64,000 nt of DNA from Solwaraspora sp. WMMD1047 (GTDB lineage: Bacteria > Actinomycetota > Actinomycetes > Mycobacteriales > Micromonosporaceae), in NCBI RefSeq assembly GCF_029626155.1, contig NZ_JARUBL010000001.1:5980501-6044500 (forward strand), read 5' to 3'. This document shows positions 25,930-63,863 of this stretch, piece after piece; position 1 is the stretch's first letter, and the number at the start of each line of letters is the position of its first letter. The notes under the pieces were generated by a model. The model saw only the letters and a program-made list of their open reading frames with translations, ran no database searches and was not told where the DNA came from. The position numbers were made by a program, and so were the translations under genes.

Positions 25930-26126
25930 GGCGCCGGCTCCCCGACCTCTGGCCAGATCCCGATCCACCCCGTGACGTAGTCGCCGGCGGCCGTGAGCAG
26001 CGCGACCGCGATGATCGCGGCGATCGCGTAGATGATGGCGTTCGGGATCACCTCGCCACGATCGTCGCGGATCGCGACCACCAGTCGGCGTCTCATCCGT
26101 GGCCACCAGGTACGGCGTTCGGGCAT
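25926..26126 (-). CDS. Flp-like small pilin peptide
   Basis: This 66-residue protein has a basic N-terminus (MPERRTWWPRMRRRLVVAIR), then DDRGEVIPNAIIYAIAAIIA and a hydrophobic helix. It occupies the position of the major Flp pilin between tadC and tadE. The Gly-x-x-x-x-Glu-Tyr processing site of classic Flp prepilins is not clearly present, so cleavage at DRG-EV is uncertain. It is the best candidate for the pilus shaft subunit in this operon. Confidence 0.65.
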   Translation of the reverse strand: MPERRTWWPRMRRRLVVAIRDDRGEVIPNAIIYAIAAIIAVALLTAAGDYVTGWIGIWPEVGEPAP

Positions 26127-26141
26127 CAGACAACCTCCTGG

Positions 26142-30283: not shown

Positions 30284-30284
30284 A

Positions 30285-31861: not shown

Positions 31862-32397
31862 GCGACGTCCCGGCGCGGGTTCGATTCGTAGACGTACCAC
31901 CGCTCGCCGACGCGCTTCACCTTCGCGACCACCGGATACTTCCTGGCCTGAGCGGTCGGGGCCGGCCGACCGCCGACCGCGTTCCAGTCGGTGGAGTCGA
32001 AGCAGTCCTCGATCACCGCGTCGTTCGCCTCCAGCCGCAGCTCGGTCACCGTGGGGCTCCATCGGGGACGGCCGACGTTGCGGACGCCGTTGTTCGACAT
32101 CAGTTGCAGGTTGTTGAGCAACTGGCCGAGGAGTGGCTCGGCCACCCATTCGGCGAGGTCCTTCGTGCGGTAGTCGGCCTTCGCCGAGGCGGCGATGTAC
32201 GCCTCCAGGTAGCCGTCGTATGTGGCGAGGATCTTCGTCCGCGCCTCGTCCTCCGCCGGGTTGCCGGTCGGGCTCGGCTGCGACGTGACCTGGCTGCCGT
32301 CCGGCGATGGCTCCGGCTCGCCATCGCCGTTGCAGCCGATCAGGCCCACCGCCATTGCCATCGCGATGACCGTCATCGTCGCCCGGATCCTCCCCAT
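31855..32397 (-). CDS. Predicted lipoprotein, first gene of the Tad-type operon
   Basis: This 180-residue protein has a short hydrophobic signal (TVIAMAMAVGLIGC) with a lipobox-like LIGC at about residue 22, followed by a Pro/Ser-rich linker and an NTF2-like region ending VGERWYVYES. It is likely anchored to the outer face of the membrane. The ATG at 32397 has AGGAGG upstream; the frame continues upstream without support. As first gene it is read from the promoter region at 32398-32714. Confidence 0.7.
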   Translation of the reverse strand: MGRIRATMTVIAMAMAVGLIGCNGDGEPEPSPDGSQVTSQPSPTGNPAEDEARTKILATYDGYLEAYIAASAKADYRTKDLAEWVAEPLLGQLLNNLQLMSNNGVRNVGRPRWSPTVTELRLEANDAVIEDCFDSTDWNAVGGRPAPTAQARKYPVVAKVKRVGERWYVYESNPRRDVAC

Positions 32398-32714
32398 GTC
32401 GCCGCCTCCTCGCAGTAGGGCCCGTTGGTCTGGCAAAGCCGGACGACGTGGTCTCGTCCGCGTTTCCAGCTTGGCCCTTGCGGCGAGGTCCCGCCGCTGC
32501 TGTTCCAGCAGTGCGCTGCGCCGACCGGAACGTCCATCCCCGACTCCGGTCGTCTCTTGCCCTCTTGGGATGCTCCCTTCTGGTGGAAGTTCCACTGCCA
32601 GCCCCAGCTACGGTCTTACCGGAACGAGCAGTCAGCCCGCTACGCTCCGTCAGGATCAGACCAGCGAGACGTGACACGGGAGTACGGCTCCTCAAGTGCG
32701 CACCTCCAAGTGCG
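32398..32714 (-). promoter_or_regulatory. Upstream region of the Tad operon with an inverted repeat
   Basis: This gene-free 317 bp upstream of the 14-gene operon should hold its promoter. It has the inverted repeat GTGGAA-G-TTCCAC (32583-32595), a possible operator about 190 bp before the first start codon. The IS701-family element sits directly upstream (duplication 32715-32718), so part of the original regulatory region may have been displaced. Confidence 0.45.
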
Positions 32715-36558: not shown

Positions 36559-37966
36559 TACTCCAACGTCATTTGGCTTGTCTGCGCTGGTAGTGGGCTC
36601 GTCGGGCGCGGGCTTGGGATGTTCGTCGCCAGATCGACCAGTGCAGGGTGTGCGCTGACGGTAGCGATGTGGCGAGGAGGAAGGCGTTGAGGAGTCGGCG
36701 GATCTCGGCGACCGTCAATGCGATGATCTTCGGATTGGGGTCGGGGTCGGGCTGTTGTGCGGCGAGGATGGTCAGGACGGCCAGGGCGAGCATGGCCAGG
36801 GTGATGTGCCGGTGCCAGCCGGTCCAGCCGCGGACCTGGTAGTGGTCGAGGCCGACTTGGCCTTTGCCGGTCTGGAACAGCTCTTCGATGCTCCAACGGG
36901 AGCCGGCGACGGTGACGAGGGTGTGCAGCGACACTGGGCGGGGTGACCAGCACAGGTAGAAGGCCATTTCGCCGGTGGTGCGGTTGCGGCGAATGAGCAG
37001 CCACCGGTGCTCGTCTGGCCGGGTGGCGGTGGTGATCCACGCCCACAGGTAGTCGCGGGGACCTTTCGCCCCGGGACCGCAGCTGTGCTGCTGCCACTCG
37101 CGGGTGGGGATCCGCCCAGCGAGGTCGTCGACGCGGATCAGAGTCCGACCGTCGTTAACGGTCACACGCCGGTCGCAGCCGACCGCCAGGACGTAGCCGA
37201 TCTCGCGGTGTTCCAGGTCAGCGCGCAGGCCAGGGTCGGCGCCGTAGACCTCGTCACCGGTCACCCACCCCACCGGGACACCAGCCTCGACCGCGGCGGC
37301 GATCATCTGCCGAGCCAGGGCAGGCTTCGTGGCGAACCCGACCTGGTCGGGGACGCCGGCGACGGCCAGCCGGTCGGGCTGGTCACACCAGGTCGCCTCC
37401 GGCAGGTAAAGCCGACGATCGATCAGCGCCCGCCCGTGCGGAGTGACGTAGGCCAGGAACACCCCGACCTGACTGTTCTCGACACGGCCGGCGGTGCCGG
37501 TGTACTGCCGCTGCACCCCGACCGAGCACACACCCTTCTTCAAGAACCCGGTCTCATCGCAGACCAGCACGGCGTCGGGGTGGCCGAGCTGCTCGACCAG
37601 CCACGAACGCACGTCGTCGCGGACGGCATCGGCGTCCCACACCGCCGTACGCAGCAGCCGCTGCATCGCCTGCGGATCAGTGTGCCCCGCCCGTTCCGCA
37701 AGCGACCAGCAGGTCTTCCGCTCGGTGTCTGACAGCAGCCCTTCCACGAACTGCCCAGCCGTCGCCCGCGGCTCGGCCCGCACGAACCGGTCAGCGACAC
37801 GCGTCACCGCCTCGTCCAAGATGAGCCGCCACCGGGCGGGGTCTACGCTGTGGCACGCGGCCACTGCACGATCTTCGGTTGTCCTCACAAACCATCGATG
37901 ATCAACACAGTGGCCGTCCTCATGCCCGCGCCACGCCCAACGCCGAAGCCAACTGACGTTGGAGTA
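36559..37966 (-). mobile_element. IS701-family insertion sequence, copy 2
   Basis: This 1408-bp copy is inverted relative to copy 1, with the same terminal repeats (TACTCCAACGTCA...). It is flanked by its own 4-bp duplication TTAG (36555-36558 and 37967-37970). The different duplications show that the two copies inserted separately and do not form a transposed composite unit. Confidence 0.9.
36569..37888 (-). CDS. IS701-family DDE transposase
   Basis: This 439-residue transposase is nearly identical to copy 1, with scattered substitutions (for example VCDETGFLKKG at the first Asp) and a shorter DPDPNP stretch. DDE residues are kept in DETGF, GDEVYG and SIEELF. The start is GTG 37888 as in copy 1. 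It appears intact. Confidence 0.9.
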   Translation of the reverse strand: MRTTEDRAVAACHSVDPARWRLILDEAVTRVADRFVRAEPRATAGQFVEGLLSDTERKTCWSLAERAGHTDPQAMQRLLRTAVWDADAVRDDVRSWLVEQLGHPDAVLVCDETGFLKKGVCSVGVQRQYTGTAGRVENSQVGVFLAYVTPHGRALIDRRLYLPEATWCDQPDRLAVAGVPDQVGFATKPALARQMIAAAVEAGVPVGWVTGDEVYGADPGLRADLEHREIGYVLAVGCDRRVTVNDGRTLIRVDDLAGRIPTREWQQHSCGPGAKGPRDYLWAWITTATRPDEHRWLLIRRNRTTGEMAFYLCWSPRPVSLHTLVTVAGSRWSIEELFQTGKGQVGLDHYQVRGWTGWHRHITLAMLALAVLTILAAQQPDPDPNPKIIALTVAEIRRLLNAFLLATSLPSAHTLHWSIWRRTSQARARRAHYQRRQAK

Positions 37967-38085
37967 TTAGAACGCCGTCGAAGTCGACCAAGATCAACAT
38001 CGGCCGACGCCGGCAGGCACTGCCGAACCCTACCGCTGTGGCTGTCAGCGGCGATGATCCCGTCGCGGCAGTACGTCGATCTGCT

Positions 38086-39075
38086 GACGTGATCTCAGCA
38101 AGGATGCGGTAGGTATCGGTATTCGAAGTGTGTGAGGTGGATAGCGGCGCGGACGATATCGCCGAGGCTTCGTGGGCTGGCGGTGGTGTGACGAAGCGTC
38201 CGCCAGCGGCCGGTCAGGATTGCGAAGCCGCGTTCTCCGAGGCACCGCAGGGATCGAAGGATCGCGTTGTGGGTTCGGTTGCCGACGGCGAGGCGGTGGC
38301 TGTCGGTGGGTTGCTTGTATGGGGTGTGGATGCCCTGGCCAGCGCCTTCGTAGCCGGAGTCGGCCAGGGTCGGCAGGTCCAGGGTTGACGCGGCCCAGTA
38401 GAGCGCGCCGGTGATGTCCAGGTCCTGGGCGCAGGTCAGGTCGTGCAGGTGCGCGGGCATCGCCTCGGACGTCCAGATCGGTAGCCCGTCGGGCCGCATG
38501 ATCGCTTGGATGTTCGCGCCGAAGCCACGGTGTTTCCCGGAGTACCAGGCATCGATCGTTTCGCCTTTGACACTGGTGGTGGTCTCGCCGAGCCGGTCGG
38601 TGTCGAACAGTTTCCCGTCCAGGATCACGTGCGACCAGCCGTCCGCGGCCACCCGGGCGAGGGCGTCGTGCAGGGTTGGTGTCTGCGCCGCGAGGACCCG
38701 CACGGCCTCGGCGACATACCGGTACGCGGTGGCCCGTGACACCCCGAACCCGGCCCCGAGGGTGGTCTTGTCCTCACCCTTGCGGAACCACACCAACACC
38801 AGCAGCGCCTGGTAGAAGCACGTCAACGCCCTCGTGCGGCGGCGGGTACCCACCGCCGCACGCTCGGCGCGAAGCAGACCCGCCACGTGACGCACGAGTT
38901 CCCTGGGCACGTCAAGCCTGGCAGAATAGGTGATCACGTGGAGCCCTCTCGGAGACCGATTCCGTCGCAAGAACCTGTCTACCGATGGCTCCACGTCCAT
39001 ATCCCAGCATGTCCGCTACGGGCGCTACGTCCGTGTCATCCCGAACCGCTCCCGAATCCTTGCTGAGATCACCTC
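38086..39075 (-). mobile_element. IS5-family insertion sequence, copy A
   Basis: This 990-bp element has ~20-bp terminal inverted repeats (GA(G/C)GTGATCTCAGCAAGGAT, one mismatch) and a 3-bp target duplication GCT (38083-38085 and 39076-39078). Its transposase matches that of copy B at 62303-63292 residue for residue. The insertion lies in DNA where I see no intact gene. Confidence 0.85.
38095..38937 (-). CDS. IS5-family DDE transposase
   Basis: This 280-residue transposase has an N-terminal helix-turn-helix (LGAGFGVSRATAYRYVAEAV) and a DDE core: VILDGKLFDTDR (first Asp), LADSGYEGAGQG (second Asp) and LGERGFAIL (Glu). I take the GTG of VITYSARLDVPREL as the start because it follows GAGAGG; an ATG at 39000 would add 21 residues. 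Confidence 0.85.
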   Translation of the reverse strand: MITYSARLDVPRELVRHVAGLLRAERAAVGTRRRTRALTCFYQALLVLVWFRKGEDKTTLGAGFGVSRATAYRYVAEAVRVLAAQTPTLHDALARVAADGWSHVILDGKLFDTDRLGETTTSVKGETIDAWYSGKHRGFGANIQAIMRPDGLPIWTSEAMPAHLHDLTCAQDLDITGALYWAASTLDLPTLADSGYEGAGQGIHTPYKQPTDSHRLAVGNRTHNAILRSLRCLGERGFAILTGRWRTLRHTTASPRSLGDIVRAAIHLTHFEYRYLPHPC

Positions 39076-42860: not shown

Positions 42861-43982
42861 TCACCCGGGCTGATGCTCCTCGCGAAGGCTGACTCCCTGG
42901 GCATAGAAGAAGGGGACCGGATCGGTCGCGGTGGCTGAGTTCAGAGGTGGGGCGTTGCGGTGGAGCTCGAAATGGAGGTGTGGGCCGCTGGATCTGCCGG
43001 TTGAGCCGACCCAGGCGATGAGCTGGCCGGCTTGGACCTGGGCGCCGGGTCGGACGTTGAGACGGACCGCGTGGCAGTAGCGCGTGGCGATGCCGTTGCC
43101 GTGGTTGATGTTGATGCGTAGCCCACAGCCGGATAGTTCAGGGTTGCCGGGGCGGTTGCAGTATGGGCTGCTGCAGCCGGCGTCGAGGACCGTTCCGGCG
43201 GCGACGGCGTAGATGGGAGTGCTGGTCGGAGCAGCGAGGTCGACGCCGTCATGGGTCGGCCGGTTGGGCGGACGGAACCCGCTGACGAGCCGGTAGCTGC
43301 CGGCGGGCAACGGTAGCCGCCATGAACCCGTTCCGCCAGCGGAGAGCGTGTACGTCGAGATCCGGCTCCGGACCCGCTGCGGGTAGTCGTGGGCCAGGCC
43401 TGCTGCGGGTACGCCGCCGGCGTTCTCGATGCAGCCGCGGCCGCAGAAGTAGGCAGCCCATGCCAGATCGAGGGCGTCGCCGCGCAACCTGCCAGCGCGG
43501 ACCGCCCGTCCTGCCCAGTCGACGTTGGCGCAGATCAGCCGGCCCATGGCGTAGATCGCGTCTTCCGGATCGTCCGGCCCGTCGCGGCGGTCGCGGTCGT
43601 AGTCGTCGCCCCAGGTTCGCCAGGTGCCGAGCTGGAACTGGGCGATACCGACGGCGTCGCCGCCGTGATCCGCTGGATTGTGTGCCACGGCGTCGAGCCG
43701 CCAACTGCTCTCCACGTCGAGCTGCGCGGCGATCATCGGTGAGATGACCTCGGGACAGATGCCGCCGGCGCGGACCACCCACGGCGCGAGGTGCCGGGCG
43801 TGCTCCGGGATCGCGTCGATGTTGAGCTGGCTCGACGAGCCGGGAACAGCGGCGAGATTGGCCGCCAGGCCCGAGCTGATGATGACGACCAGTGCGAGCG
43901 GCAGGGCGACCAGCGCGGCCAAAACGATGAAGATCGCGGGTACGACAGCGCTTCTGGCCCGAGGTTCGAGACGGTCAGCCAT
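42861..43982 (-). CDS. Cell-wall hydrolase: lytic transglycosylase-like plus M23 peptidase domains
   Basis: This 373-residue protein starts with a membrane segment (AVVPAIFIVLAALVALPLAL). A transglycosylase-like region follows (MIAAQLDVESSWRLDAVAHN, with Glu as likely catalytic residue, then AVGIAQFQLGTW). The C-terminus is an M23 endopeptidase domain (PTHDGVDLAAP with the first metal ligands, NHGNGIATRYCH, and GPHLHFELH). T4SS modules need such enzymes to open the peptidoglycan. The ATG at 43982 is preferred; a GTG at 43991 overlaps the upstream stop as GTGA. Confidence 0.8.
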   Translation of the reverse strand: MADRLEPRARSAVVPAIFIVLAALVALPLALVVIISSGLAANLAAVPGSSSQLNIDAIPEHARHLAPWVVRAGGICPEVISPMIAAQLDVESSWRLDAVAHNPADHGGDAVGIAQFQLGTWRTWGDDYDRDRRDGPDDPEDAIYAMGRLICANVDWAGRAVRAGRLRGDALDLAWAAYFCGRGCIENAGGVPAAGLAHDYPQRVRSRISTYTLSAGGTGSWRLPLPAGSYRLVSGFRPPNRPTHDGVDLAAPTSTPIYAVAAGTVLDAGCSSPYCNRPGNPELSGCGLRININHGNGIATRYCHAVRLNVRPGAQVQAGQLIAWVGSTGRSSGPHLHFELHRNAPPLNSATATDPVPFFYAQGVSLREEHQPG

Positions 43983-43987
43983 GACGG

Positions 43988-44563
43988 TCACTCGATGCTG
44001 TAGCCGCTGAGACGCCAGCCGTCCGCGACGAGACGCAGGGTGCAGTAGACGGTGTGGTGCGTCTCGGTGTCGCGCCAGCCGTCGCGGCCGACCGGCGAGG
44101 CGGAGACGAGCACGGCACGGTGGGTCTCCTGGTCGCCGTCGGGGCCAAGCGCGTCTCCGGCGTACGGATGGAGACGCACCTGCGTGCGGACCTGGTGTTG
44201 GGTCCACCGCTGCCACCGGGGACTCGGCCGGTGGGTGGAGACGTCGGCGACGGCCCCGGTGAGCGTCTCGTCGAGATAGGCGATCGCCCGCCGGTAGGCA
44301 TCCGTGGGTCCGGCGTCGGTTGTCGTGTCGACGGTGTGCACCGTCTCGGCGAAGGCCCGGCAGACCGCGTCGGGATCGCGATAGTCGATCTTCTGGTCGG
44401 CAACCGGTCTCGGTGTCTCGACGACCCGAGGCCGCGACGAGACGGCCTGCATCGGCGACGAGGGCTCGCCGGTTGCGGCGAGCAGGACGCCACCTGCGGC
44501 GAGGAGCACGACGACCACGGCTGCGATGAGCATGGCCACTGGTCCGCGTTGGGCTGAGGTCAT
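43988..44563 (-). CDS. Bitopic T4SS-associated protein, NTF2-like
   Basis: This 191-residue protein has an N-terminal membrane segment (VAMLIAAVVVVLLAAGGVLL) and an extracytoplasmic region ending THHTVYCTLRLVADGWRLSG, typical of NTF2-like/VirB8-type domains. It is co-transcribed with the wall hydrolase and divergent from the T4SS operon, so it is a likely accessory of the channel. A longer Pro/Arg-rich N-terminus (to 44686) is open but less likely. Confidence 0.6.
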   Translation of the reverse strand: MTSAQRGPVAMLIAAVVVVLLAAGGVLLAATGEPSSPMQAVSSRPRVVETPRPVADQKIDYRDPDAVCRAFAETVHTVDTTTDAGPTDAYRRAIAYLDETLTGAVADVSTHRPSPRWQRWTQHQVRTQVRLHPYAGDALGPDGDQETHRAVLVSASPVGRDGWRDTETHHTVYCTLRLVADGWRLSGYSIE

Positions 44564-44725: not shown

Positions 44726-45046
44726 ATGCTGGTCAAGCTGTTCGTCGCGGCGCAGGTGCTCGTCGCGCCCACGCCCGAACCTTCTTCCGGTGTGGTGGAT
44801 CTGAATCCGCCGCCGGTCGTGCCGCCCGGCATGGACGAGGTGTCGACCACCTTCCTGAGCTGGGGCAAGTGGACGTTGATGGTGGCCGGGGTGCTCGGCT
44901 TCATGATCTGCGCCGGCATGATGATCATCGGCCGGCGGAACCGGTCGCAGACGGCGGTCGACGGGGCGGCGGGGGTGCCGTGGGTGCTCGCCGGTCTGGC
45001 GTTGACGACGCTGGCGGCGGGGATCGCCGGGGTGGTGCTGTCATGA
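44726..45046 (+). CDS. Small two-pass membrane protein of the T4SS operon
   Basis: This 106-residue protein has an N-terminal hydrophobic stretch (LVKLFVAAQVLVA), a Pro-rich segment and two membrane segments (WTLMVAGVLGFMICAGMMII and VLAGLALTTLAAGIAGVVL). The topology resembles VirB2/TrbC-type pilins or VirB3-like proteins. The ATG at 44726 has GGAG six bases upstream. It is the first gene of the plus-strand operon and overlaps the next by 4 bp. Confidence 0.6.
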   Translation: MLVKLFVAAQVLVAPTPEPSSGVVDLNPPPVVPPGMDEVSTTFLSWGKWTLMVAGVLGFMICAGMMIIGRRNRSQTAVDGAAGVPWVLAGLALTTLAAGIAGVVLS

Positions 45047-45819
45047 AGGGCTACCGGGGTCGTCGGCGCGCGCCTCGCCGCCGCGGCGTGATCGTGCTGA
45101 TCGTGGTCGTGGTGTGCGCCCTGCTGGTCGCAGCTCTGTTGGTGGCGAGGTCGGCGGGGCGCAGTTCCGGCGGGCCGGCGGACCGGGCGGGCACGGCGGT
45201 GGTCGTGGAGATCCCGCCACCGTCGGCCATGTCCGCGACCGCCACCGGGCCGGCTCGGGAACCGGTTGGCTGGCCGGCGGACCTGCGCTGGACCGCCGTC
45301 GCGGGTCTGCCGTTGCCGGTCTCGGCGACGGTCGGCCCGCGGGACCTCTCCGGTGGACGGGCACGGGGGTTCGCCATCGGGCAGGCCGGCGCGATGTTGG
45401 CCGTGGTGCACCTGGTCGTACGGACCAGCCCGCAGGTGGGTCCGGCCGTGTTCGGACCGACGCTGCGCGAGCAGGTCGTCGGACCGGACGCCGCCTCGTA
45501 CGCCGAAGCGGTGCACGGGGACTACGAGGCGCAGCGGGAGCAACTCCTGCTGCCGCCCGGTGAACCGCTGGGCCGGATCTACGGCTCGATCACCGGGTTA
45601 CGCGTCGACTCGTACTCCGATGATGCCGCGTCGTTGCGGCTGCTGATCGAGGCACCCGGCCGGGACGGCGGGATCGAACGGGCGGCGACGGTCGTGCAGG
45701 TCGCCTGGTCGGGCGGCGACTGGAAGCTGGTCGCGCCGCCACAGGGCGACTGGTCGACGGTGCGCGCTCCGGTACCCGCCGACCGGGTGGGCGACTACCC
45801 GCCGATACCGGGGAGGTAG
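45043..45819 (+). CDS. Bitopic T4SS-associated protein
   Basis: This 258-residue protein has a very basic start (MKGYRGRRRAPRRRG), a membrane segment (VIVLIVVVVCALLVAALLVA, about 16-35) and a ~200-residue outer domain. It ends GDWKLVAPPQGDWS, the tail pattern of NTF2/VirB8-like conjugation proteins in Gram-positive elements. The ATG overlaps the preceding stop by 4 bp. It may be the VirB8/TcpC counterpart. Confidence 0.6.
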   Translation: MKGYRGRRRAPRRRGVIVLIVVVVCALLVAALLVARSAGRSSGGPADRAGTAVVVEIPPPSAMSATATGPAREPVGWPADLRWTAVAGLPLPVSATVGPRDLSGGRARGFAIGQAGAMLAVVHLVVRTSPQVGPAVFGPTLREQVVGPDAASYAEAVHGDYEAQREQLLLPPGEPLGRIYGSITGLRVDSYSDDAASLRLLIEAPGRDGGIERAATVVQVAWSGGDWKLVAPPQGDWSTVRAPVPADRVGDYPPIPGR

Positions 45820-45821
45820 TC

Positions 45822-47105
45822 GTGTGCGAGATCTGGGACCTGGGTTGTCCAGTTCGGGAACGAGCCGCCGAGGAGGTCGCCGACTCCGTGGTCGGCCGGC
45901 TCGCCGACATGATCGCCGACGCGCAATCGGCCCTCATCACGTCGACTATCACCTGGTGGCTGCAACTGCCGCCGGTCGACGTCGAAGCCGCGCCCGCCGT
46001 GCGGACGCTGCAGGAGTGGATGCTGCCGTTCGCCCTGGTGATCGCAGTCGGCGGCACGCTCTGGCAGTCCCTGATGCTGATCCTGAGCCGCCGGGGCGAG
46101 CCACTGATCGCCGTGGTCAAAGGGCTGTTCACCACCGTGATCTGGGGCGCGGTGAGCGTGACCGGCGTCCACCTGCTGCTGCAGGGCGGTGAGGCGTACA
46201 CGGAGTGGGTGCTCACCCACGGCCTGGGCTGCGACCCGGGCCTCGGGCAGGACGCCGAGTGCAAGACCGACGCCCTGGCCGGGCGGATGCAGATAATGCT
46301 CGCACCCGCCGGTCCGAACCTCGCCAGCATCCTGATCGTCACCGTCGGGATGGTGGTGCTGGCCGCCACGGTGACGCAGGCGATCCTGCTGCTGTTCCGC
46401 AGCGGGGCCATCCTGATCCTCGCCGGGCTGTTACAGCTCGCCGCGAGCGGCACGTTCACGGCGGCCACATCGAACTGGCTCCGGCGGGTGCTCGGCTGGC
46501 TGCTGGCGCTGGTGTTCTACGAGCCGTTCGCGGCCACCTGTTACGCGGTCGGGTTCATGCTGATCGGCGACCGGGAGAACACCGACATCGCGACCTGGTT
46601 CACCGGGGTCGGGATGCTTGGGCTGTCGCTGGTGGCGTTGCCGGCGATGATGCGATTCTTCAACTGGACCGTGGGTTCCGTGCAGATCTCGGGCAACTCG
46701 GCGGGGATGGTCGCCGCTGCCGGCGCGGCCGGGATGCACGCGATCGCGTCCCGGCGCGGCGTGGGCGGGTTGGGCGCCATCGACTACGCCCGCGACCTGG
46801 ACGCCCACCGACCGGCCGCTGCCGGGACCGGGTCGGGACCCGGGTCGGCCCGGTCGACGCCGCCGGTCTTCACCGGTCCCGTGCCGGCCCCGGCGACGGC
46901 CTCCAGCACATCCACCACTGCCGCCTCGACGGCGAGCACGACGGCGTCGACGTCAGCCGCCGCTGGCGCGGCCGCAAGCTCAGGAGCAGCGGCGGCAGGA
47001 CCCGCCGGTGCGGTTGTCGCCGGCGCCGTGGTGGCCGGCAAGGTCGTCACCAGTTCCACCCGGTCCGCCGGTGGTGCCGCGACGCGGGCCACCGAGGGCG
47101 GGTGA
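45822..47105 (+). CDS. VirB6/TrbL-like multi-pass membrane protein
   Basis: This 427-residue protein has six or more membrane segments between about residues 65 and 300 (for example WMLPFALVIAVGGTLWQSLM and ASILIVTVGMVVLAATVTQA). A low-complexity Ala/Thr/Ser-rich cytoplasmic or outer tail follows (residues ~330-427). TrbL/VirB6 proteins form the inner-membrane channel of T4SS. The start is GTG 45822, two bases after the previous stop, and the end overlaps the next gene as GTGA. Confidence 0.75.
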   Translation: MCEIWDLGCPVRERAAEEVADSVVGRLADMIADAQSALITSTITWWLQLPPVDVEAAPAVRTLQEWMLPFALVIAVGGTLWQSLMLILSRRGEPLIAVVKGLFTTVIWGAVSVTGVHLLLQGGEAYTEWVLTHGLGCDPGLGQDAECKTDALAGRMQIMLAPAGPNLASILIVTVGMVVLAATVTQAILLLFRSGAILILAGLLQLAASGTFTAATSNWLRRVLGWLLALVFYEPFAATCYAVGFMLIGDRENTDIATWFTGVGMLGLSLVALPAMMRFFNWTVGSVQISGNSAGMVAAAGAAGMHAIASRRGVGGLGAIDYARDLDAHRPAAAGTGSGPGSARSTPPVFTGPVPAPATASSTSTTAASTASTTASTSAAAGAAASSGAAAAGPAGAVVAGAVVAGKVVTSSTRSAGGAATRATEGG

Positions 47106-48598
47106 ACGCCGTGACGCCGAACGCGACGGCCGAGCCGCGCAGCTACGGAGGCTGGCGGCGGGCCCGTGGGATGGGGCTGATGGGGCTCGGCTTCGGCCAG
47201 ACCATGGGCGTACTCGCCGCCGTCATCGCCGCACTGATCACCGTCACGGTGAACCTCAAGGCGCTCATCGTCGTCGGGCCGCTCTGCCTCGCGGTGGCCG
47301 CCGGGAACCTCGTACGGTGGGATGGGGTTTCCCTCGCGCAGGCGCTGCTGCGCTGGTCGCGGTGGACGGCCGGCGTCGGGCGCGGCCAGACCAGCTTTCG
47401 CGGCGGGGTGATGGCTGTCGGCGAGCACGCCTGGCAGCTTCCTGGGGTGCTCGCCCCGACCGTGTTGCTCGACGTCGAGGACGAGCGCGGCGAACGGTAC
47501 GGGGTGGTGTGGCACCGCCGGATCGGAACGATGACCGTGACGCTGCGCTGCGCCGCCCAGTCGACCTGGCTGGCCGACCCGGACGCCGCGAACGCCTGGG
47601 TGGCCAACTGGGGTGGCTGGCTCGCCGGTCTCGGCCACGTACCGATCGTGCGTTGGGTGGCCGTCACGGTGGACACCGCCCCCGACTCGGGCCGCCGGTT
47701 GTCCGACTATGTGCACGGTCGGCTGGCGCCGGATGGGCCAGCTGCCGCCGTACGTGTGCTGGAACAGCTTGTGGCGACGGCGCCGCGCGCCGCCGCGGAC
47801 GTCCAGACCACGGTGTCCATCACCTTCGACCCGGGGATGTCCGCGTCCCGACCGAGGACCATGCCGGACCGGCTCGCCGAGGTAGACCAGGCGCTGCCGG
47901 GGCTGCGCGATTCGCTCGCCGGCTGCGGCCTGACCGTCCTCGGCACCGCCAGCGCCACCCAGCTCGCCGGAATGGTCCGCGGCGCCTTCGACCCGGCGTC
48001 TCGCGCCGAGATCGGCCGCCTGCTCGACATCGCCACCGCCGGGGACCTGCTCGGCTGGGAGAACGCCGGCCCGGTCGCCGCCGACGAACATCGCGACCGG
48101 TACGAGCACGACGGCGCGGTCAGTGTGAGCTGGGCGTGGCACGAGGCGCCCCGGCAACCCGTCACCCACGACGTCCTGGCCCGGCTGCTCGCGCCCGGCC
48201 AGTTTCCGCGCCGGGTCAGCCTGCTCTACCGGCCGCTGACCGCCGGGCAGGCGGCTGCGGAGGTGGAGCGGCAGGTCAACGCGGCGCAGTTCCGGGCCGC
48301 GTACCGGCGGGCCCGCCGGCTCGACCCCACCGCTCGGGACGTCGCCGACCAGGAACAGGCGGTCGCGGCGGCCCGGGAGGAGGCGCTCGGCGCCGGCGTC
48401 GGACTGGTGAGCCTTTGGGTGACCAGCACCGTGCTCGACCCGGCCGACCTGGGTCGGGCCGTCGCCGACGTCGAGGCCCGCGCGGACACCTGCAAGATCC
48501 GGCTCCGCCGCCTCTGGGCCTCGCAGTCCACTGGGTTCGCCGTCACCCTCCCCGCTGGCATATGCCCGCCGGTGCTCGCCGGCCACTGGCCGCACTGA
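47102..48598 (+). CDS. SCO6880-family conjugation protein
   Basis: This 498-residue protein has two adjacent membrane segments near the N-terminus (GLGFGQTMGVLAAVIAALIT and VGPLCLAVAAGNLV), as in PrgI-like/SCO6880 proteins of actinobacterial T4SS. The rest is a soluble region resembling the N-terminal domain of VirB4 proteins (RRVSLLYRPLTAGQAAAEVE, then AQFRAAYRRARR). It appears to be the half of VirB4 that in other systems precedes the ATPase domain, encoded separately next to it. The start GTG overlaps the previous stop. Confidence 0.7.
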   Translation: MNAVTPNATAEPRSYGGWRRARGMGLMGLGFGQTMGVLAAVIAALITVTVNLKALIVVGPLCLAVAAGNLVRWDGVSLAQALLRWSRWTAGVGRGQTSFRGGVMAVGEHAWQLPGVLAPTVLLDVEDERGERYGVVWHRRIGTMTVTLRCAAQSTWLADPDAANAWVANWGGWLAGLGHVPIVRWVAVTVDTAPDSGRRLSDYVHGRLAPDGPAAAVRVLEQLVATAPRAAADVQTTVSITFDPGMSASRPRTMPDRLAEVDQALPGLRDSLAGCGLTVLGTASATQLAGMVRGAFDPASRAEIGRLLDIATAGDLLGWENAGPVAADEHRDRYEHDGAVSVSWAWHEAPRQPVTHDVLARLLAPGQFPRRVSLLYRPLTAGQAAAEVERQVNAAQFRAAYRRARRLDPTARDVADQEQAVAAAREEALGAGVGLVSLWVTSTVLDPADLGRAVADVEARADTCKIRLRRLWASQSTGFAVTLPAGICPPVLAGHWPH

Positions 48599-48627: not shown

Positions 48628-50076
48628 ATGCGTATTTCCCCTGTAGACCCCCCTGGGCCGGTGCCGCCGGCGTGGGGCTGGCGCCACCGAGGCGCCGGCC
48701 GAGCCGTGCACGTCGCCGCCGGCGTCGAATACCAGGCCACCACCGCGCAGGCCGCCGGCCTGTACCCGTTCACCGCCGGCAGCGGCTCCCCGCTGCTCGG
48801 CGTGCCCATCGGGCGGCACCAGTTGTGGGGCGAGTCCGTGCTGCTCGACCCGTTCGAGTGGCTGACCGCCGGCCTGATCACCAACACCGGCATGTTCGTC
48901 CTCGGCCAACCCGGCGCCGGCAAATCGGCACTGGCCAAGCGCCTGGTCACCGGGATGACCGGCACCGGCGCCCAGGCCCTCATCCTCGGCGACACCAAAC
49001 CCGACTACACCCCACTGGTACGGAGACTCGGCGGGCAGGTCATCCGGGTCGGCCGCGGTCTGGACCGGATCAACCCGCTCGACGCCGGCCCGCTCGGCGC
49101 CGCCCTGACCCGGATGAGCGGCCCCGACGCGGACCAGCTCCGACTGGAGGTACGCGGACGCCGGCTCACCCTGCTCGTCGCGTTGTGCACCCTGGTCCGC
49201 GACGGCGGCCGGGTCAGCAATGCCGAAGAGGTCATCCTCGGCCGGGCGGTCGACCTGCTCGCCGAACGGCAACCCACCGACCCGGTCATCCCCGACGTAC
49301 TCGCCCTGCTCGAACAGGGCCCCGATCGGATACGGGCCGCCGCCCGCGCCACCGGCCAGGCCGACTACCGGCGCCGGGTCGACGACCTGGTCGCCACCCT
49401 GCGGCTGCTCTGCGACGGCACCCTCGCCGGAGTATTCGACGCCGCCACCTCCACCCCGATCGACCTGGCGGCACCAGCGGTCAGCGTCGACATCTCCCGG
49501 GTCGCCGCCGCCGGAGACCGCCTGGTAGCCGCCGCCATGCTCTCCACCTGGTCCTACGGGTACGCCGTCATCGACGCCGCCGCCGTGCTCGCCGAACACC
49601 GGCTCGCCCCCCGGCGCCGGTTCCTCGCCGTGATGGACGAACTCTGGCGAGCCCTACGCGGCGCACCCGGCCTGGTCGAACCGGCCGATGCGCTGACCCG
49701 GCTGTCCCGCAACCTCGGCGTCGCGCAGATCATGCTCACCCACAGCCTCGACGACCTGGAGGCCCTGGCCAGCGACGCCGACCGGGCCAAGGGCCGGGGC
49801 ATGGCCGAACGGTGCGCCATCAAGGTCCTCGCCGCCCTGCCGGCCCGCGAACTCGACCGGGTCGGCCGGATCGTCCGCCTCACCGGACCCGAACGGGACA
49901 TGGTCAGCTCCTGGGCCGCACCGGAAGCCCTGGTTCCCGCCGCCACCCACCCCGGACGGGGCCGCTACCTGATCAAGACCGGAGAACGCGCCGGTACGCC
50001 GGTCGCGCTGCACCTCGTCGGCGACGAGCACGCCCTCTACGACACCGACATGGCGGTCCGGGCGGGTGCCCGATGA
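48628..50076 (+). CDS. VirB4-like T4SS ATPase
   Basis: This 482-residue P-loop ATPase has Walker A GQPGAGKS (93-100) and ALILGDTKPDYTPLVRRLGG. A Walker B (FLAVMDELWRALRG) precedes an RLSRNLGVAQIMLTHSLDD sensor-like region, a layout typical of VirB4/TraC. It powers assembly or substrate movement at the inner membrane. The ATG at 48628 follows AAGGAG; the longer frame upstream is a shadow. It overlaps the VirD4-like gene as ATGA. Confidence 0.8.
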   Translation: MRISPVDPPGPVPPAWGWRHRGAGRAVHVAAGVEYQATTAQAAGLYPFTAGSGSPLLGVPIGRHQLWGESVLLDPFEWLTAGLITNTGMFVLGQPGAGKSALAKRLVTGMTGTGAQALILGDTKPDYTPLVRRLGGQVIRVGRGLDRINPLDAGPLGAALTRMSGPDADQLRLEVRGRRLTLLVALCTLVRDGGRVSNAEEVILGRAVDLLAERQPTDPVIPDVLALLEQGPDRIRAAARATGQADYRRRVDDLVATLRLLCDGTLAGVFDAATSTPIDLAAPAVSVDISRVAAAGDRLVAAAMLSTWSYGYAVIDAAAVLAEHRLAPRRRFLAVMDELWRALRGAPGLVEPADALTRLSRNLGVAQIMLTHSLDDLEALASDADRAKGRGMAERCAIKVLAALPARELDRVGRIVRLTGPERDMVSSWAAPEALVPAATHPGRGRYLIKTGERAGTPVALHLVGDEHALYDTDMAVRAGAR

Positions 50077-51899
50077 CCGGCCTCCACGGCCAGCGGCCGG
50101 TCCAGCCCGGCAGCGCCGCCGGCGGATACCCGCTCGCTCCCTGGCTGATCCTCACCGGCTTCGCCGGCGGCGGCGCCCTGCTGTGGCTCGCCTGGCTCGC
50201 CGGGCGCGTGGCCATCGTCCTGTCTGGAGACGACTGGGTCGGTCCCGGGTTCGGGTGGGAGTTCACCGGTGACCTGTTCCATCGGCGGTGGGAGCGGCTG
50301 TGGCCCGGGGTGCCGCCGGTGCGGGTCGGGGTGGTTTTCGTGCTGCTGCTCGCCGCTGTGGTCGTACCCGTGGGGTGGGGTTGGGTGTGGTGGCAGGCTC
50401 GCCGGCCCCGGGCCGACGACCCGCTGCCGTCGCTTGCCGACGCCCGCGACCTCGGCGAGCTCACCGGAGCTGCGGCGGTCCGCCGGGCCCAACGGCTGCG
50501 GCCCGGGCTCGCCGGCCTCGCCGCCGACGCAGTCCCGCCCACGGCGGTCGGCGTGGCCCTTGGGCGGCTCGTCACCAGGCACCGCCGACAGAGGCCGGTG
50601 CTCCGGTCGAGCTGGGAGGATGTCCTGCTCGCCATCATGGCGCCCCGGGCTGGCAAGACCACCGCGCTCGCCGTACCGCCGGTCCTGGACGCACCCGGCG
50701 CGGTACTGGCCACCTCGAATCGCTCCGATGTCTGGGCCACCACGAACCGGGCGCGGGCCCGAGTCGGCACCGTCTGGCTGTTCGACCCGCAGAACATCAC
50801 CCGCCAACCCCAGCGGCTCTGGTGGGACCCGCTCGCCGGCATCAGCGGCGCCGAAGAGGCCGGACGCCTCGCCGACCACTTCATCCAGGAGATCCGCGGC
50901 ACCGGATCGTCCGACCCGTTCTGGCCACTGGCCGCCGGTGATCTGCTCACCTGCCTCTTCCTCGCCGCCGCGGGCACCGGCGGAACGTTGGCCGACGTGC
51001 AGGCGTGGCTCACCGACGTCGCCAACCGCGAGCCCGTCACCCTGCTCCGGGCCGCCGGCTATCCCCAGGCCGCCCGGTCATTGGCCGGGCGGCAGGCCGG
51101 CGCCCCGGAAACCCGCGACGGCGTCTACGAGACCGCGCGCACCGCCGCCCGCTGCCTCGCCGACCCCGACATCATGGCGTGGGTAACCCCCAGCCCTGGC
51201 CTACCCGCCCTGCAGGCAGCGGCGCTGCCCGCCAGCCGGGACACCCTCTACCTGCTCAGCAAGGAAGGCTCCGGCGCCGCCGCGCCGCTCGTCGCCGCTC
51301 TCACCGACACCGTTTTCCGCGCCGGCGTCGCCCGGGCCGAAGCTGCCGGCGGCCGGATCGACCCGCCGCTGCTCGCCGTCCTCGACGAGGCCGCGAACAT
51401 CTGCAAGATCTCCGACCTGCCGCAGCTCTACAGCCATCTCGGCGGCCGGGCCATCATCCCGATCACCATCATCCAGAACCTTGCCCAGGGCCAGGGCGTC
51501 TGGGGCGAACGCGGCATGGCCGCCCTCTGGTCGGCCGCCACCATCAAGCTCATCGGCGCCGGCCTCGACGACGCGCGCCACGCCGACGACATCTCCCGGC
51601 TCATCGGCGACCACGACGTCGCCACCACCTCGGTCAGCAGGGACGGCAACGGCCACCGCAGCTACTCCACCAGCCCGCACCGTCGCCGGATCCTGGAACC
51701 CGGCGACCTGCGCTCCCTCCCCCGAGGCCGGGCCATCCTGCTCGCGACCGGCGCTCGGGCCGCCATGATCGAGCTGATGCCGTGGTACGCCGGCCCGCAC
51801 GCCGACACCATCACCGCCGACACCGCCGCCAGCGTCGACGCGATCACCCGGAACGCTCGTGCCACCTTCGACGGGGACATCTTCGGCGGTACGGCATGA
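50073..51899 (+). CDS. VirD4/TraG-like coupling ATPase
   Basis: This 608-residue protein has two N-terminal membrane segments (about 22-50 and 84-106). Its P-loop reads APRAGKTT (190-197), replacing the first Gly of the Walker A. SNRSDVWATT follows, then a Walker B LLAVLDEAANI and a TraM-recognition-like region (AIIPITIIQNLAQGQG). Coupling proteins select DNA-protein substrates and pump them into the T4SS channel. Coupled to its neighbours by 4-bp overlaps on both sides. Confidence 0.8.
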   Translation: MTGLHGQRPVQPGSAAGGYPLAPWLILTGFAGGGALLWLAWLAGRVAIVLSGDDWVGPGFGWEFTGDLFHRRWERLWPGVPPVRVGVVFVLLLAAVVVPVGWGWVWWQARRPRADDPLPSLADARDLGELTGAAAVRRAQRLRPGLAGLAADAVPPTAVGVALGRLVTRHRRQRPVLRSSWEDVLLAIMAPRAGKTTALAVPPVLDAPGAVLATSNRSDVWATTNRARARVGTVWLFDPQNITRQPQRLWWDPLAGISGAEEAGRLADHFIQEIRGTGSSDPFWPLAAGDLLTCLFLAAAGTGGTLADVQAWLTDVANREPVTLLRAAGYPQAARSLAGRQAGAPETRDGVYETARTAARCLADPDIMAWVTPSPGLPALQAAALPASRDTLYLLSKEGSGAAAPLVAALTDTVFRAGVARAEAAGGRIDPPLLAVLDEAANICKISDLPQLYSHLGGRAIIPITIIQNLAQGQGVWGERGMAALWSAATIKLIGAGLDDARHADDISRLIGDHDVATTSVSRDGNGHRSYSTSPHRRRILEPGDLRSLPRGRAILLATGARAAMIELMPWYAGPHADTITADTAASVDAITRNARATFDGDIFGGTA

Positions 51900-52066
51900 C
51901 CGAGTCCTGGGTGGAGGCTGTCTTTGCCGACCTGCAGCGCCAGATCGATGTCCTCACCGACCGGTTGGACGCGCTCCCTTGCGGCGGCTGCCCCGGGCAT
52001 GCATGCGCCGCGACGCGGGCGGACCGTGATGGGCCGCATCCAGACCAGGACCGCGGCGATGGCTGA
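51896..52066 (+). CDS. Small 56-residue protein
   Basis: A short helix (ESWVEAVFADLQRQIDVLTD) precedes a Cys/His cluster (CGGCPGHAC). The ATG at 51896 overlaps the VirD4-like stop as ATGA, and the frame ends in the start region of the primase-like gene, a tight packing that supports it being real. The cysteines could bind zinc. Role unknown. Confidence 0.55.
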   Translation: MTESWVEAVFADLQRQIDVLTDRLDALPCGGCPGHACAATRADRDGPHPDQDRGDG

Positions 52067-54134
52067 CCGGCCGGTCCACGCCCCGTCGCCGGCGGTTGAA
52101 CGGCTCTATGCCGCCAATGCCGAGGCTGCCCGGTACTACAGACGACGCATCGCCGCCTCACCTGCCGTTTTGCGGTACGCCCGCCAGCACGGCATCGCCA
52201 AAGTCCTTGCCGAGAACGAGCCGTGGGCGGTCGGCTACGCCCCGAGCCCGTGGACTGGCCTGGTCGACCACATCAGGGGTTGCGGCTTCACCGATCCGGA
52301 AATCCAGGGTGCTGGACTGGCATTCGTCCATCGCGCCACCGGCAACCTGCTCGACCGCTTCCGGGACCGGATCATGTTCCCCGTCACCGACCACCAGAAC
52401 CGCGTCGTCGGCTTCACCGCCCGCGACCTCTCCGGCAACGCCCGAGCAAAATGGATCAACACCCCCGAGACTCCGATCTACCAGAAGAGCAAGCTGCTCT
52501 ACGGCCTCGGTCAGCAGCTGGTCGGCCGGCTGCCCGGCGAGGGAACTCCCGATGTCGTCATCGTCGAAGGCGCAGCCGACGTCCTTGCCGTCCGACTGAT
52601 GGCCAACGTGCGGGGTGCGCCCGCTGGGACATCGCCGCTGTACGCGGTGGCGCCCTGCGGCACCCACCTCACCAGCGGGCACCTCGACCTGCTTCACCAG
52701 GCACTGCCCGGCGCAAGACTCATCCTCGCCTTCGACAGCGACCCCGCCGGCGAACGAGCCCTCGACCGGACCTACCTTCTCACCAGACGATGGCCCGGTC
52801 AGGTCCTCGGCACCAGGCTGCCTGCCGGTCACGACCCGGCCAGCAGGCTCGCAACCGTCGGTCCCTTAGACGCACTCGGCGAGCTGCTCGCGGCAGCTCT
52901 GCCGCTGGCGCAGATCGCGATGAGCCACGTCCTACAGCGGCTGAAGGACTCCGGACACATCACCAACCCCACCGCGTACGCCGAGGACCGCGTCCTGGCC
53001 TTCCGCGCCGTTGTCGACTTCTTCGTCGACAATCCCGGGCTGCACCGGCAGCTCGCCGCCGACGCCGCCCGACTCCTCGGCCTCGGCGAGGCCGAGGTTG
53101 CTCGGGGAATCATGGACATCATCCTCGCCCGGTCCGAGGCCGACCTCCCTGCCGACGGCGGGTCGCCAGAGCATGCGTCCGAGCGGAAGCCTCGCCCACG
53201 GGGTGGTACTAGCCTGCTCTCCGCCGCACGCAACGGGTCCGACCAAGCCGGCGACACCCGTACCAGCGTCTTCGCTGGCGCATTCAGCAGAGGCCGCCAG
53301 GCGATCGCCACCACCGCCGCAGCGGATCGCCACGACGCCACCACCGGGGTCACGGCTTGGGCGCTTGCCGACGGCATCGGCGATCCGCCCGAAGCTTCCG
53401 CCGCAGCCACCATGGCATGTGAAAGCGCGGTCACCGCAGCTCTGGGAACCTCGGCCGCCGATGCCCTGACCGCCGCCCGCTCCGCGGTCAACGCCCACTA
53501 CCAGGCCCACCCGCCGGACGACGCCGGCGACGCCTCGCTGCTCATCGTCATCGCACGACCGGACCCGACCGCCCGATACGGAGTCCACTACGAGATCGCC
53601 TGGACCGGCGACTGCCGCGCCTACACCGTCAACGGCCACGGCCTCCACCAGCTCACCACCGACCACACCACCGCGGCTCGCCGCCAGACGGAGGCCGGTC
53701 CATCGGCCAGGCCGGAAGGCATAGCCGACCGGATCCTCACCTCCAGCATTCGCACCGGCCCCATCGGAACCTGCTCTCTGCCCAACGGTCCGCTCCTGCT
53801 CTGCACAGCCACCGTCCACCGCCAGGTCGGCGAACGGCTCCTCGCGACCGAACTCGCCAGCATCACCGACGTCCTGACTAGCGTCCAACGGATCATCACC
53901 GCGGCCGCCAACCACCACAACGACGCCGAAACACGCCTTCTGCTGGTCCTTCCTCGCGACGCCCCTTCTGCACTCGTCAGCCCGGCTCTCGGCCGGCGCG
54001 CGAAGTCCAGAATGCCGGATTTAGCTCGGTCCTCTTACCCCCAATCTCCGACAGCGGCCCGGGCAAGGGCTCATGACGAAGGTGCTGCCGGTCTCCTCAC
54101 AAGGAGCCCACTTCCAGTCAGATTCCGGCTTTAA
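52029..54134 (+). CDS. Toprim primase-like protein fused to a degenerate PP2C domain
   Basis: Of 701 residues, about 50-290 resemble the DnaG catalytic core: a GCGFTDPEIQ segment, FRDRIMFPVTDHQNRVVGFT, and Toprim motifs VVIVEGAADV (Glu180) and LAFDSDPAG (Asp236, Asp238). No zinc-binding domain is present. After a linker, residues ~415-640 resemble a PP2C phosphatase: AWALADGIGD (448-452), GDCRAY (527-532) and LTTDHT. The SDG metal motif is replaced by CTAT (592-595), so phosphatase activity is doubtful. Start could be ATG 52029 or ATG 52059. It is the last gene of the T4SS operon and could prime transferred DNA. Confidence 0.7.
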   Translation: MGRIQTRTAAMADRPVHAPSPAVERLYAANAEAARYYRRRIAASPAVLRYARQHGIAKVLAENEPWAVGYAPSPWTGLVDHIRGCGFTDPEIQGAGLAFVHRATGNLLDRFRDRIMFPVTDHQNRVVGFTARDLSGNARAKWINTPETPIYQKSKLLYGLGQQLVGRLPGEGTPDVVIVEGAADVLAVRLMANVRGAPAGTSPLYAVAPCGTHLTSGHLDLLHQALPGARLILAFDSDPAGERALDRTYLLTRRWPGQVLGTRLPAGHDPASRLATVGPLDALGELLAAALPLAQIAMSHVLQRLKDSGHITNPTAYAEDRVLAFRAVVDFFVDNPGLHRQLAADAARLLGLGEAEVARGIMDIILARSEADLPADGGSPEHASERKPRPRGGTSLLSAARNGSDQAGDTRTSVFAGAFSRGRQAIATTAAADRHDATTGVTAWALADGIGDPPEASAAATMACESAVTAALGTSAADALTAARSAVNAHYQAHPPDDAGDASLLIVIARPDPTARYGVHYEIAWTGDCRAYTVNGHGLHQLTTDHTTAARRQTEAGPSARPEGIADRILTSSIRTGPIGTCSLPNGPLLLCTATVHRQVGERLLATELASITDVLTSVQRIITAAANHHNDAETRLLLVLPRDAPSALVSPALGRRAKSRMPDLARSSYPQSPTAARARAHDEGAAGLLTRSPLPVRFRL

Positions 54135-62302: not shown

Positions 62303-63292
62303 GAGGTGATCTCAGCAAGGATTCGGGAGCGGTTCGGGATGACACGGACGTAGCGCCCGTAGCGGACATGCTGGGATATGGACGTGGAGCCATCGGTAGA
62401 CAGGTTCTTGCGACGGAATCGGTCTCCGAGAGGGCTCCACGTGATCACCTATTCTGCCAGGCTTGACGTGCCCAGGGAACTCGTGCGTCACGTGGCGGGT
62501 CTGCTTCGCGCCGAGCGTGCGGCGGTGGGTACCCGCCGCCGCACGAGGGCGTTGACGTGCTTCTACCAGGCGCTGCTGGTGTTGGTGTGGTTCCGCAAGG
62601 GTGAGGACAAGACCACCCTCGGGGCCGGGTTCGGGGTGTCACGGGCCACCGCGTACCGGTATGTCGCCGAGGCCGTGCGGGTCCTCGCGGCGCAGACACC
62701 AACCCTGCACGACGCCCTCGCCCGGGTGGCCGCGGACGGCTGGTCGCACGTGATCCTGGACGGGAAACTGTTCGACACCGACCGGCTCGGCGAGACCACC
62801 ACCAGTGTCAAAGGCGAAACGATCGATGCCTGGTACTCCGGGAAACACCGTGGCTTCGGCGCGAACATCCAAGCGATCATGCGGCCCGACGGGCTACCGA
62901 TCTGGACGTCCGAGGCGATGCCCGCGCACCTGCACGACCTGACCTGCGCCCAGGACCTGGACATCACCGGCGCGCTCTACTGGGCCGCGTCAACCCTGGA
63001 CCTGCCGACCCTGGCCGACTCCGGCTACGAAGGCGCTGGCCAGGGCATCCACACCCCATACAAGCAACCCACCGACAGCCACCGCCTCGCCGTCGGCAAC
63101 CGAACCCACAACGCGATCCTTCGATCCCTGCGGTGCCTCGGAGAACGCGGCTTCGCAATCCTGACCGGCCGCTGGCGGACGCTTCGTCACACCACCGCCA
63201 GCCCACGAAGCCTCGGCGATATCGTCCGCGCCGCTATCCACCTCACACACTTCGAATACCGATACCTACCGCATCCTTGCTGAGATCACGTC
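62303..63292 (+). mobile_element. IS5-family insertion sequence, copy B
   Basis: This 990-bp element has the same ~20-bp terminal repeats as copy A and the 3-bp target duplication AGT (62300-62302 and 63293-63295). It is in opposite orientation to copy A, 23 kb away. It disrupts a DUF2637-like gene. The lack of divergence from copy A suggests recent transposition. Confidence 0.9.
62441..63283 (+). CDS. IS5-family DDE transposase
   Basis: This 280-residue transposase has the same residues as the copy-A enzyme over its length, with Asp in VILDGKLF, Asp in LADSGYEG and Glu in LGERGF. The GTG start at 62441 follows GAGAGGG; ATG 62378 is the alternative. Intact and probably functional. Confidence 0.85.
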   Translation: MITYSARLDVPRELVRHVAGLLRAERAAVGTRRRTRALTCFYQALLVLVWFRKGEDKTTLGAGFGVSRATAYRYVAEAVRVLAAQTPTLHDALARVAADGWSHVILDGKLFDTDRLGETTTSVKGETIDAWYSGKHRGFGANIQAIMRPDGLPIWTSEAMPAHLHDLTCAQDLDITGALYWAASTLDLPTLADSGYEGAGQGIHTPYKQPTDSHRLAVGNRTHNAILRSLRCLGERGFAILTGRWRTLRHTTASPRSLGDIVRAAIHLTHFEYRYLPHPC

Positions 63293-63863
63293 AGTAGTTC
63301 ATCGCCGCAGCGCCCGCCGCGAACAACCATGTCGCCGCCCGGAACAACGCCGTCCCGTCGCCCTCCGCCCGAGCCTTCCAGTCCAACCGCGCAACGTAGG
63401 CCGTCGACAGCTCGAATCCCGCCGCGAACACCACCGCCCCCGCCAACGGCCACCGCATCACGTCCTGCGCGAACTGGATCTGCCCCACCCAGGCGACCGC
63501 CATCGGGAACCCGATCGGCCCCACGAACAACGCTCGATCCACCCAGACCGGCGCCGCCGCCCGCAACCGGGCCCGCCGCGCCGCCCGCGAACTCCGCCGC
63601 GCCTTCCGCCGCCCCGCCTTCGCCCGCTGATCCGCCTCCCGCACCCGAAGCGCCACCTCAGCACGACGCTCCTCCACCTCCAACTCCGCCAACGCCGCCC
63701 GACGCCGCCGCTCCACATCCGCATCAGCCGAAACCCGCTGCTGCTCCGCCAGCGCCACCTTCCGCCGCGTACGCCGATCCGGCGCGCCCTCCTCCGACGA
63801 AGCCACCTCCAGACCCGTTCGGGCACCAGCGGATCCAGACGCAGCCCTGCCAGGGTCAGCCAT

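Follow-up and report, generated by a model that had tools for sequence, protein, structure and literature searches.

A DnaG-type primase core fused to an apparently inactive PP2C-fold domain closes a T4SS operon in Micromonosporaceae

The window analyzed here, a stretch of 64,000 nucleotides from Solwaraspora sp. WMMD1047 (contig NZ_JARUBL010000001.1, positions 5,980,501 to 6,044,500), contains a transfer region in which homologues of SCO6880, VirB4, and VirD4 share one operon. The last gene of this T4SS operon follows just after virD4, in some loci with a 56-aa ORF in between, and encodes a primase joined to a PP2C-like part. The initial annotation had described this gene as a primase fused to a dead phosphatase-like domain at the end of a conjugation operon. 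Pfam, fold searches, and synteny bear out each element of this description, with a PP2C fold that looks catalytically dead. The transfer region is composed as follows (window positions).

42861..44216, minus strand: M23 peptidase, divergent, at the head of the transfer region (Pfam PF01551, E 3.8e-27; synteny)
44726..45046, plus strand: small ORF of 106 aa at the operon head, without family match
45043..45819, plus strand: 258-aa ORF of the operon, without family match
45822..47105, plus strand: membrane protein, TrbL/VirB6-like by position and labelled by eye (no Pfam match; position conserved)
47102..48598, plus strand: SCO6880 family protein (NCBIfam NF042935, 493 bits, cut-off 60)
48628..50076, plus strand: VirB4-like ATPase, below family cut-offs (best matches VirB4/TraC models; synteny)
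50073..51899, plus strand: VirD4-like coupling protein (Pfam PF12696, E 1.8e-30; PF02534, E 5.6e-28)
51896..52066, plus strand: 56-aa ORF that separates the VirD4 and primase genes and overlaps the start of the latter (five of nine named loci give partial matches, 50-55% identity)
52029..54134, plus strand: whole ORF, 701 codons open, DnaG-type primase core without zinc finger plus pseudo-PP2C

The order from the divergent M23 gene through the two small ORFs, the membrane protein, SCO6880, VirB4, and VirD4 to primase-PP2C is kept in seven of the nine named loci, these seven being the ones whose DNA extends far enough. L039 and L040 have about 1 kb extra between SCO6880 and VirB4. PP2C-bearing sequences fall into two clades, A and B, and four clade-B loci display the same gene order, the M23 match being absent in two of them (L137 and L139).

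Within the last gene, the ATG at 52059 is likely the true start, giving 691 aa, since homologues begin at about this position and an AGGA lies 8 bases before it. Numbered over the full frame, the 701-aa protein runs from the primase core through a disordered linker and a PP2C-fold domain to a disordered tail, with the following features.

52134..52514, plus strand: DNAG_N subdomain, residues 36-162 (Pfam PF08275, E 2.5e-28)
52554..52784, plus strand: Toprim subdomain, residues 176-252 (Pfam Toprim_2 at 177-252, E 4.3e-8; acidic residues invariant)
53133..53261, plus strand: linker, about residues 369-411 (pLDDT below 50 in the full-length model; fast-evolving by identity per region)
53262..53954, plus strand: PP2C-fold domain, residues 412-642 (AF2 model, fold searches)
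53367..53384, plus strand: ADGIGD, the DG motif, residues 447-452 (metal Asp D448 kept)
53607..53624, plus strand: GDCRAY, residues 527-532 (D528 aligns with D119 of tPphA)
53802..53813, plus strand: CTAT in place of C-S-D-G (metal Asp lost; LLLCTATVHR against LLLCSDGL in tPphA)
54021..54038, plus strand: LARSSY, the window form of a conserved motif in the disordered tail

The first reading of the primase part, that the Toprim acidic residues are kept and a zinc finger is absent, holds. E180, D184, D236, and D238 are invariant among eight fused proteins (alignment A1), as are R110, R112, R114, and K153, and the zinc-finger (CHC2) model finds no match in the window primase at E <= 1 in the Pfam scan. 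We take the counterparts of these invariant residues in E. coli DnaG to be catalytic or basic-ridge residues. Beyond Toprim, the surrounding DnaG polymerase core is present too, which adds to the initial annotation: residues 20-300 align with solved DnaG cores (best E 1.6e-29). NCBIfam TIGR01391 (DnaG) matches the protein at E 4.4e-43 and 147.7 bits, below its equivalog cut-off of 283.6. Thus, DNAG_N and Toprim are shared with DnaG, whereas the zinc finger and a recognized DnaB-binding domain are not. The housekeeping DnaG of the same genome contains Zn_ribbon_DnaG (E 1e-30) as well as both PF10410 and PF08278; in the window primase, neither of the latter two is detected at E <= 1 by sequence comparison. 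The bare primases that were scanned are likewise without zinc finger. A primase core of this kind may be poor at priming alone.

The PADLOC model RT_UG29 (DRT defence) matches core residues 111-304 (window 52359-52940, plus strand; E 1.7e-10); this sequence match suggests that the defence protein model includes a primase-like part. In a relative (G293), the same primase core lies within a 1391-aa open frame (L209:3700-7872, plus strand).

In the C-terminal part, Pfam PP2C_2 matches residues 439-563 at 23.3 bits, just below the cut-off of 24. An AF2 model of residues 412-655, calculated from ten sequences (the window copy and those of nine named Micromonosporaceae loci; alignment A2), reaches a pLDDT of 72.4 and a pTM of 0.72, a middling confidence at which the predicted fold is nevertheless clear. 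Searched with Foldseek, this model matches 127 PDB chains at E <= 0.001, tPphA being the best (1.2e-12), and VIA superimposes it on tPphA with a Z of 22.4 and an rmsd of 3.6 over 215 residues. The ten-sequence profile matches 3rnr (SpoIIE family protein; E 2.8e-9), tPphA (1e-6), and PstP (2.2e-6). Structure prediction, the check named in the initial annotation, thus returns a PP2C fold, and the candidate reading that there is no such fold is rejected by the Foldseek and VIA matches to tPphA. The full-length model (pLDDT 64.3, pTM 0.42) displays a disordered linker and tail, and part of its Toprim region is weak.

A protein family of phages may include a related domain, since PHROG family phrog_5650 (function unknown, 565 positions) matches the PP2C part at E 1.1e-14 (window 53313-53750, plus strand). 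A tblastn search of a phage collection with the PP2C part found none, and viral contigs yielded one stretch, which was not confirmed. Searched with a stand-alone PP2C, phages gave four unannotated records at 33-35% identity.

The motifs ADGIGD, GDCRAY, and LTTDHT (the last at residues 542-547) are present, and the SDG position reads CTAT, as the initial annotation had it. D119 of tPphA, to which D528 corresponds, is presumably a third-metal ligand. We tallied metal ligands across 37 aligned proteins, composed of 16 distinct fused sequences including the window copy, five stand-alone PP2Cs, and 16 other PP2Cs. Both the SDG Asp and the DN Asp occur in 0/16 fused, 5/5 stand-alone, and 16/16 other PP2Cs. 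The motif I Asp (AD of the stand-alone group) is present in 5/5 stand-alone proteins and in 0/16 fused ones, which have Thr, Ile, or Ala instead; motif I of generic PP2Cs is misaligned with that of the stand-alone group, and the position was counted for stand-alone versus fused proteins only. The DG Asp is found in all 11 clade-A fused sequences and is replaced by Glu in all five of clade B, while the position of D528 is Asp in 10/11 and 3/5, respectively. The DG Asp is the only one of the DG, SDG, DN, and motif I metal Asps that remains in the window protein. Compared with tPphA, PstP, and Stp1 (PP2C/PPM), it shares the fold, GD[CS]RAY, and the DG motif but has neither SDG, DN, nor motif I Asp.

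The loss of the SDG motif is not a quirk of the window copy, a possibility rejected by its absence from all 16 fused sequences examined. The motif is intact in all five stand-alone relatives; loss and fusion thus go together. That the fusion stems from an error of sequencing or frame is likewise rejected, as the frame is open in 16 distinct sequences. In the accessible part of PMC3375153, mutation shows that the coordinating Asp of all three metals is essential for PP2C activity. Because metal-ligand Asps are lost throughout the fused sequences and PP2Cs depend on all three metals, catalysis by the fused domain is, judged from its residues, very unlikely. Activity might still be retained if D448 and D528 formed an atypical metal site; the former is kept in all and the latter in all but one of the clade-A sequences. 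We hold this to be highly improbable: the three other ligand Asps are gone from all 16 fused proteins, clade B has Glu for D448 throughout, and the three-metal requirement reported in that same source stands against it.

Inactive PP2C folds have precedents. TAB1 and PHLPP2 are of this type according to the accessible part of PMC12002173 and, like the window protein, keep the PP2C fold despite loss of much of the metal centre. They differ in being eukaryotic, in having other partners, and in retaining one metal at the M2 site.

The fused PP2C domains form one clade (support 81/78, below the starred level) that adjoins stand-alone PP2Cs. The five intact stand-alone proteins derive from three actinobacterial genomes and two Streptomyces plasmids, and L128, one of the 16 other PP2Cs, groups with them in the tree. 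WP_331730900.1, encoded on a Streptomyces plasmid, is a stand-alone relative of this kind. As these relatives retain all the Asps in question, the fused domain has its kin in a phosphatase lineage with an intact site. The simplest reading of the sequences is that an active stand-alone PP2C would have been captured and its metal site, and with it catalysis, lost afterwards. The surroundings of the stand-alone genes vary. A ParB-like gene lies at most six annotated genes away from the plasmid copies L110, L111, and L234; on the contig of one genomic copy, a TrwC relaxase is encoded along with a distant T4SS, and the other two genomic copies have no T4SS matches among the surrounding genes. The primase tree neither shows nor rejects a single origin of PP2C-bearing primases (AU p 0.342). 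A first primase tree with ArdC-type rows was discarded (branch 3.82), and four ArdC rows were dropped from the second. The window copy sits on a long branch in both the primase tree (0.53, flagged) and the PP2C tree (0.71). A clade-B primase without PP2C part (G020) has no T4SS genes in the surrounding 18 kb.

This kinship bears on a further idea of the initial annotation, namely that a dead phosphatase-like sensor could couple DNA entry to phospho-signalling, taken here as Ser/Thr signalling of the host. PP2C folds bind phosphoproteins, and descent beside an intact PP2C lineage would fit such a role. However, most ligands of the phosphate-holding metals are gone, a scan of 12 window proteins around the operon matched no kinase family, and a plain protein-binding role accounts for the same facts. 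We therefore regard phospho-sensing as improbable.

In seven overlapping pairs of named relatives, none of which includes the window copy, NG86 dN/dS is 0.07-0.41 for the PP2C part versus 0.17-0.46 for the primase, and values for linker and tail mostly lie above both. By this measure, the dead PP2C domain is under purifying selection in the relatives and constrained like the primase. It could be thought a decaying relic of a chance fusion, given the lost catalytic residues and a window copy on a long branch outside the dN/dS pairs. Yet the fold is kept, 16 distinct sequences carry the domain, and its dN/dS is well under 1 in all seven pairs. A relic is hardly credible under these circumstances, and we reject it on the similarity of the PP2C and primase values in relatives.

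The whole fusion is found in other genomes at 44-50% identity, with a more distant form at 38%. The named genomes that carry it belong to Micromonospora, Salinispora, Dactylosporangium, and Virgisporangium, each a genus of Micromonosporaceae. Taking VirB4 at >=62% identity as the marker, 300 genomes of the window's family contain 28 T4SS loci. On the 3' side of VirD4, 14 of them encode a primase with PP2C part (eight clade A, six clade B) and nine a bare primase; three have no primase in the ~9 kb fetched, one has a broken primase, and one lies at a contig end. This count scores as fused one clade-A gene split over two contigs, and five clade-A loci in it were judged from protein loci, positions, and synteny of matching named records. 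The PP2C part is thus absent from 9/23 loci with an intact primase and has to be considered accessory; together with the three loci devoid of a primase, this implies that transfer of this type depends on neither part. A partner gene confined to the PP2C-bearing loci was not identified.

Around a second VirB4 type (about 40-47% identity), this primase occurs in none of the 20 loci examined of 40 listed, and VirB4 loci in other families of the class (61-68% identity) are without it in 13 of 13, among 15 matches listed. Class-wide, the PP2C profile matches in 20 of 394 genomes at E <= 1e-12, and at the 19 loci other than the window's, the primase profile finds nothing beside the PP2C match; clade B may escape this profile search. 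A single-sequence scan of genome contigs gave 43 pattern stretches, none of them confirmed; a second contig scan gave 78 loci, with the PP2C part covered in nine and the primase part only in 69.

Two relatives illustrate the range of architectures. The primase of the Micromonospora zamorensis plasmid NZ_CP107937 occupies the same place after virD4 of a related T4SS but is bare, with 429 aa and no PP2C part. Another primase type of the family stands at L012:1483-3633 (minus strand), where DNAG_N and Toprim are fused to an ArdC N-terminal-like region (just below cut-off), a TraC1-like plan in actinobacteria. Far from the T4SS, window 20408-21196 (minus strand) encodes a weak relative (28%, E 3e-5) of an M. 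zamorensis plasmid protein whose gene lies just downstream of the primase there and in named relatives.

Many plasmid primases serve replication, and the window protein could similarly serve the element's own replication in the donor, with nothing special to transfer. The three of 28 loci of this T4SS that lack such a primase are in line with this view, whereas the fixed position of the gene, closing the T4SS operon after virD4 in both PP2C-bearing clades, speaks against it; we rate it as unlikely. Instead, the best reading is a conjugative primase that belongs to an integrated Micromonosporaceae T4SS element.

Comparable proteins are TraC1 from RP4 and Sog from ColIb-P9 (IncI1): both are Toprim primases encoded in a conjugation region, and TraC1 is also fused to an extra domain. 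As described in the accessible part of PMC7213743, both primases are transferred to the recipient, TraC1 has its extra domain beside Toprim, and Sog differs from it in having no ArdC domain; SogL is carried over independently of the plasmid (PMC8406263, accessible part). The extra domain of TraC1 is ArdC/DUF1738, that of the window protein a PP2C fold, and delivery is putative here. ArdcN has no match in the window protein at E <= 1.

Judged by its operon position and by what TraC1 and Sog do, the probable task of the core is the priming of transferred strands. It would lay primers on the transferred ssDNA, either in the recipient or for the replacement strand in the donor. The PP2C part would stand in place of the helicase-binding domain of DnaG and, without hydrolyzing phosphate, would act as a non-catalytic protein-binding module. 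Its putative partner most likely belongs to the transfer/replication complex, with VirD4, the relaxase, SSB, or a helicase as candidates. On balance, we lean slightly towards this reading, a conjugative Toprim primase that primes transferred ssDNA and uses a catalytically dead PP2C as binding module.

A different emphasis would make the pseudo-PP2C and disordered tail above all a delivery module, docking the primase on VirD4 for carriage into the recipient. In PP2C-bearing loci that span both genes, the primase directly follows virD4, in some with the 56-aa ORF in between; the tail carries LA[KR][ST]SF in 8/11 clade-A sequences along with a basic end, and TraC1 and Sog, by the partial account cited above, do reach the recipient. 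On the other hand, nine of the 23 primases beside related VirD4 proteins are bare, and basic tails are common among control ORFs: among 346 such ORFs, called mechanically, 14% on average reach the basicity of clade A in their final 10 residues, and 32% that of clade B. As a T4SS signal, the basic C-terminus is suggestive for clade A alone, and weakly so. A role mainly in delivery therefore appears somewhat unlikely to us. Quite unlikely, in our estimate, is a broader, recurrent scheme of T4SS-delivered Toprim primases with exchangeable passenger domains that act in the recipient (ArdC in TraC1, the dead PP2C here), the latter being a delivered decoy or binder of a recipient protein, e.g., of Ser/Thr kinase-based defence or of replication.

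The window's own element may no longer be intact. Only one PF03432 relaxase was detected genome-wide; its gene begins near position 6,052,809 of the contig, ~18 kb past the primase gene and beyond the window, so that the element is rearranged. This distance, together with the long branch of the window copy and its absence from the dN/dS pairs, indicates that the element may be decaying. The relaxase itself is of MobA/VirD2 type (contig 6052809-6054044; L233:16810-18045), shares ~50% identity with its M. zamorensis plasmid counterpart, and lies on the opposite strand to DUF4913, ~17 kb away. Its placement suggests, from gene positions, insertions or an inversion after 56071. The transfer region is flanked by two identical, inverted insertion elements of 992 bp with a 301-aa transposase (38084-39075, minus strand; 62303-63294, plus strand). 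Two transposase genes of another family stand in opposite orientation (32797-34122, plus strand; 36569-37888, minus strand) and encode proteins that are 92% identical. Beside the transfer region, a Tad/Flp pilus-like block, assigned by eye, comprises CpaF-like ATPase, TadB/TadC-like, and TadE-like proteins (about 25000-32700, minus strand).

No report of a primase-PP2C fusion was found in the open-licence papers searched. The terms "primase", "toprim", and "dnag" are absent from the main text of a survey of bacterial PP2C domains (PMC12088040), and the accessible parts of PMC3218068, PMC12102498, and PMC12857230 mention no such fusion. Within this literature, the fusion gives a conjugative primase of new domain architecture. 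The PP2C-fold pseudophosphatases described in the accessible part of PMC12002173 (TAB1, PHLPP2, and Cyr1) are eukaryotic. Here, in a bacterial mobile-element family, relatives with an intact site, the fused form, and the lost metal centre can be observed together, with the dead domain under selection and in a fixed place of a conjugation operon. The family lends itself to a clean test of how a phosphatase fold functions after catalysis is lost, and of what conjugative primases carry besides priming.
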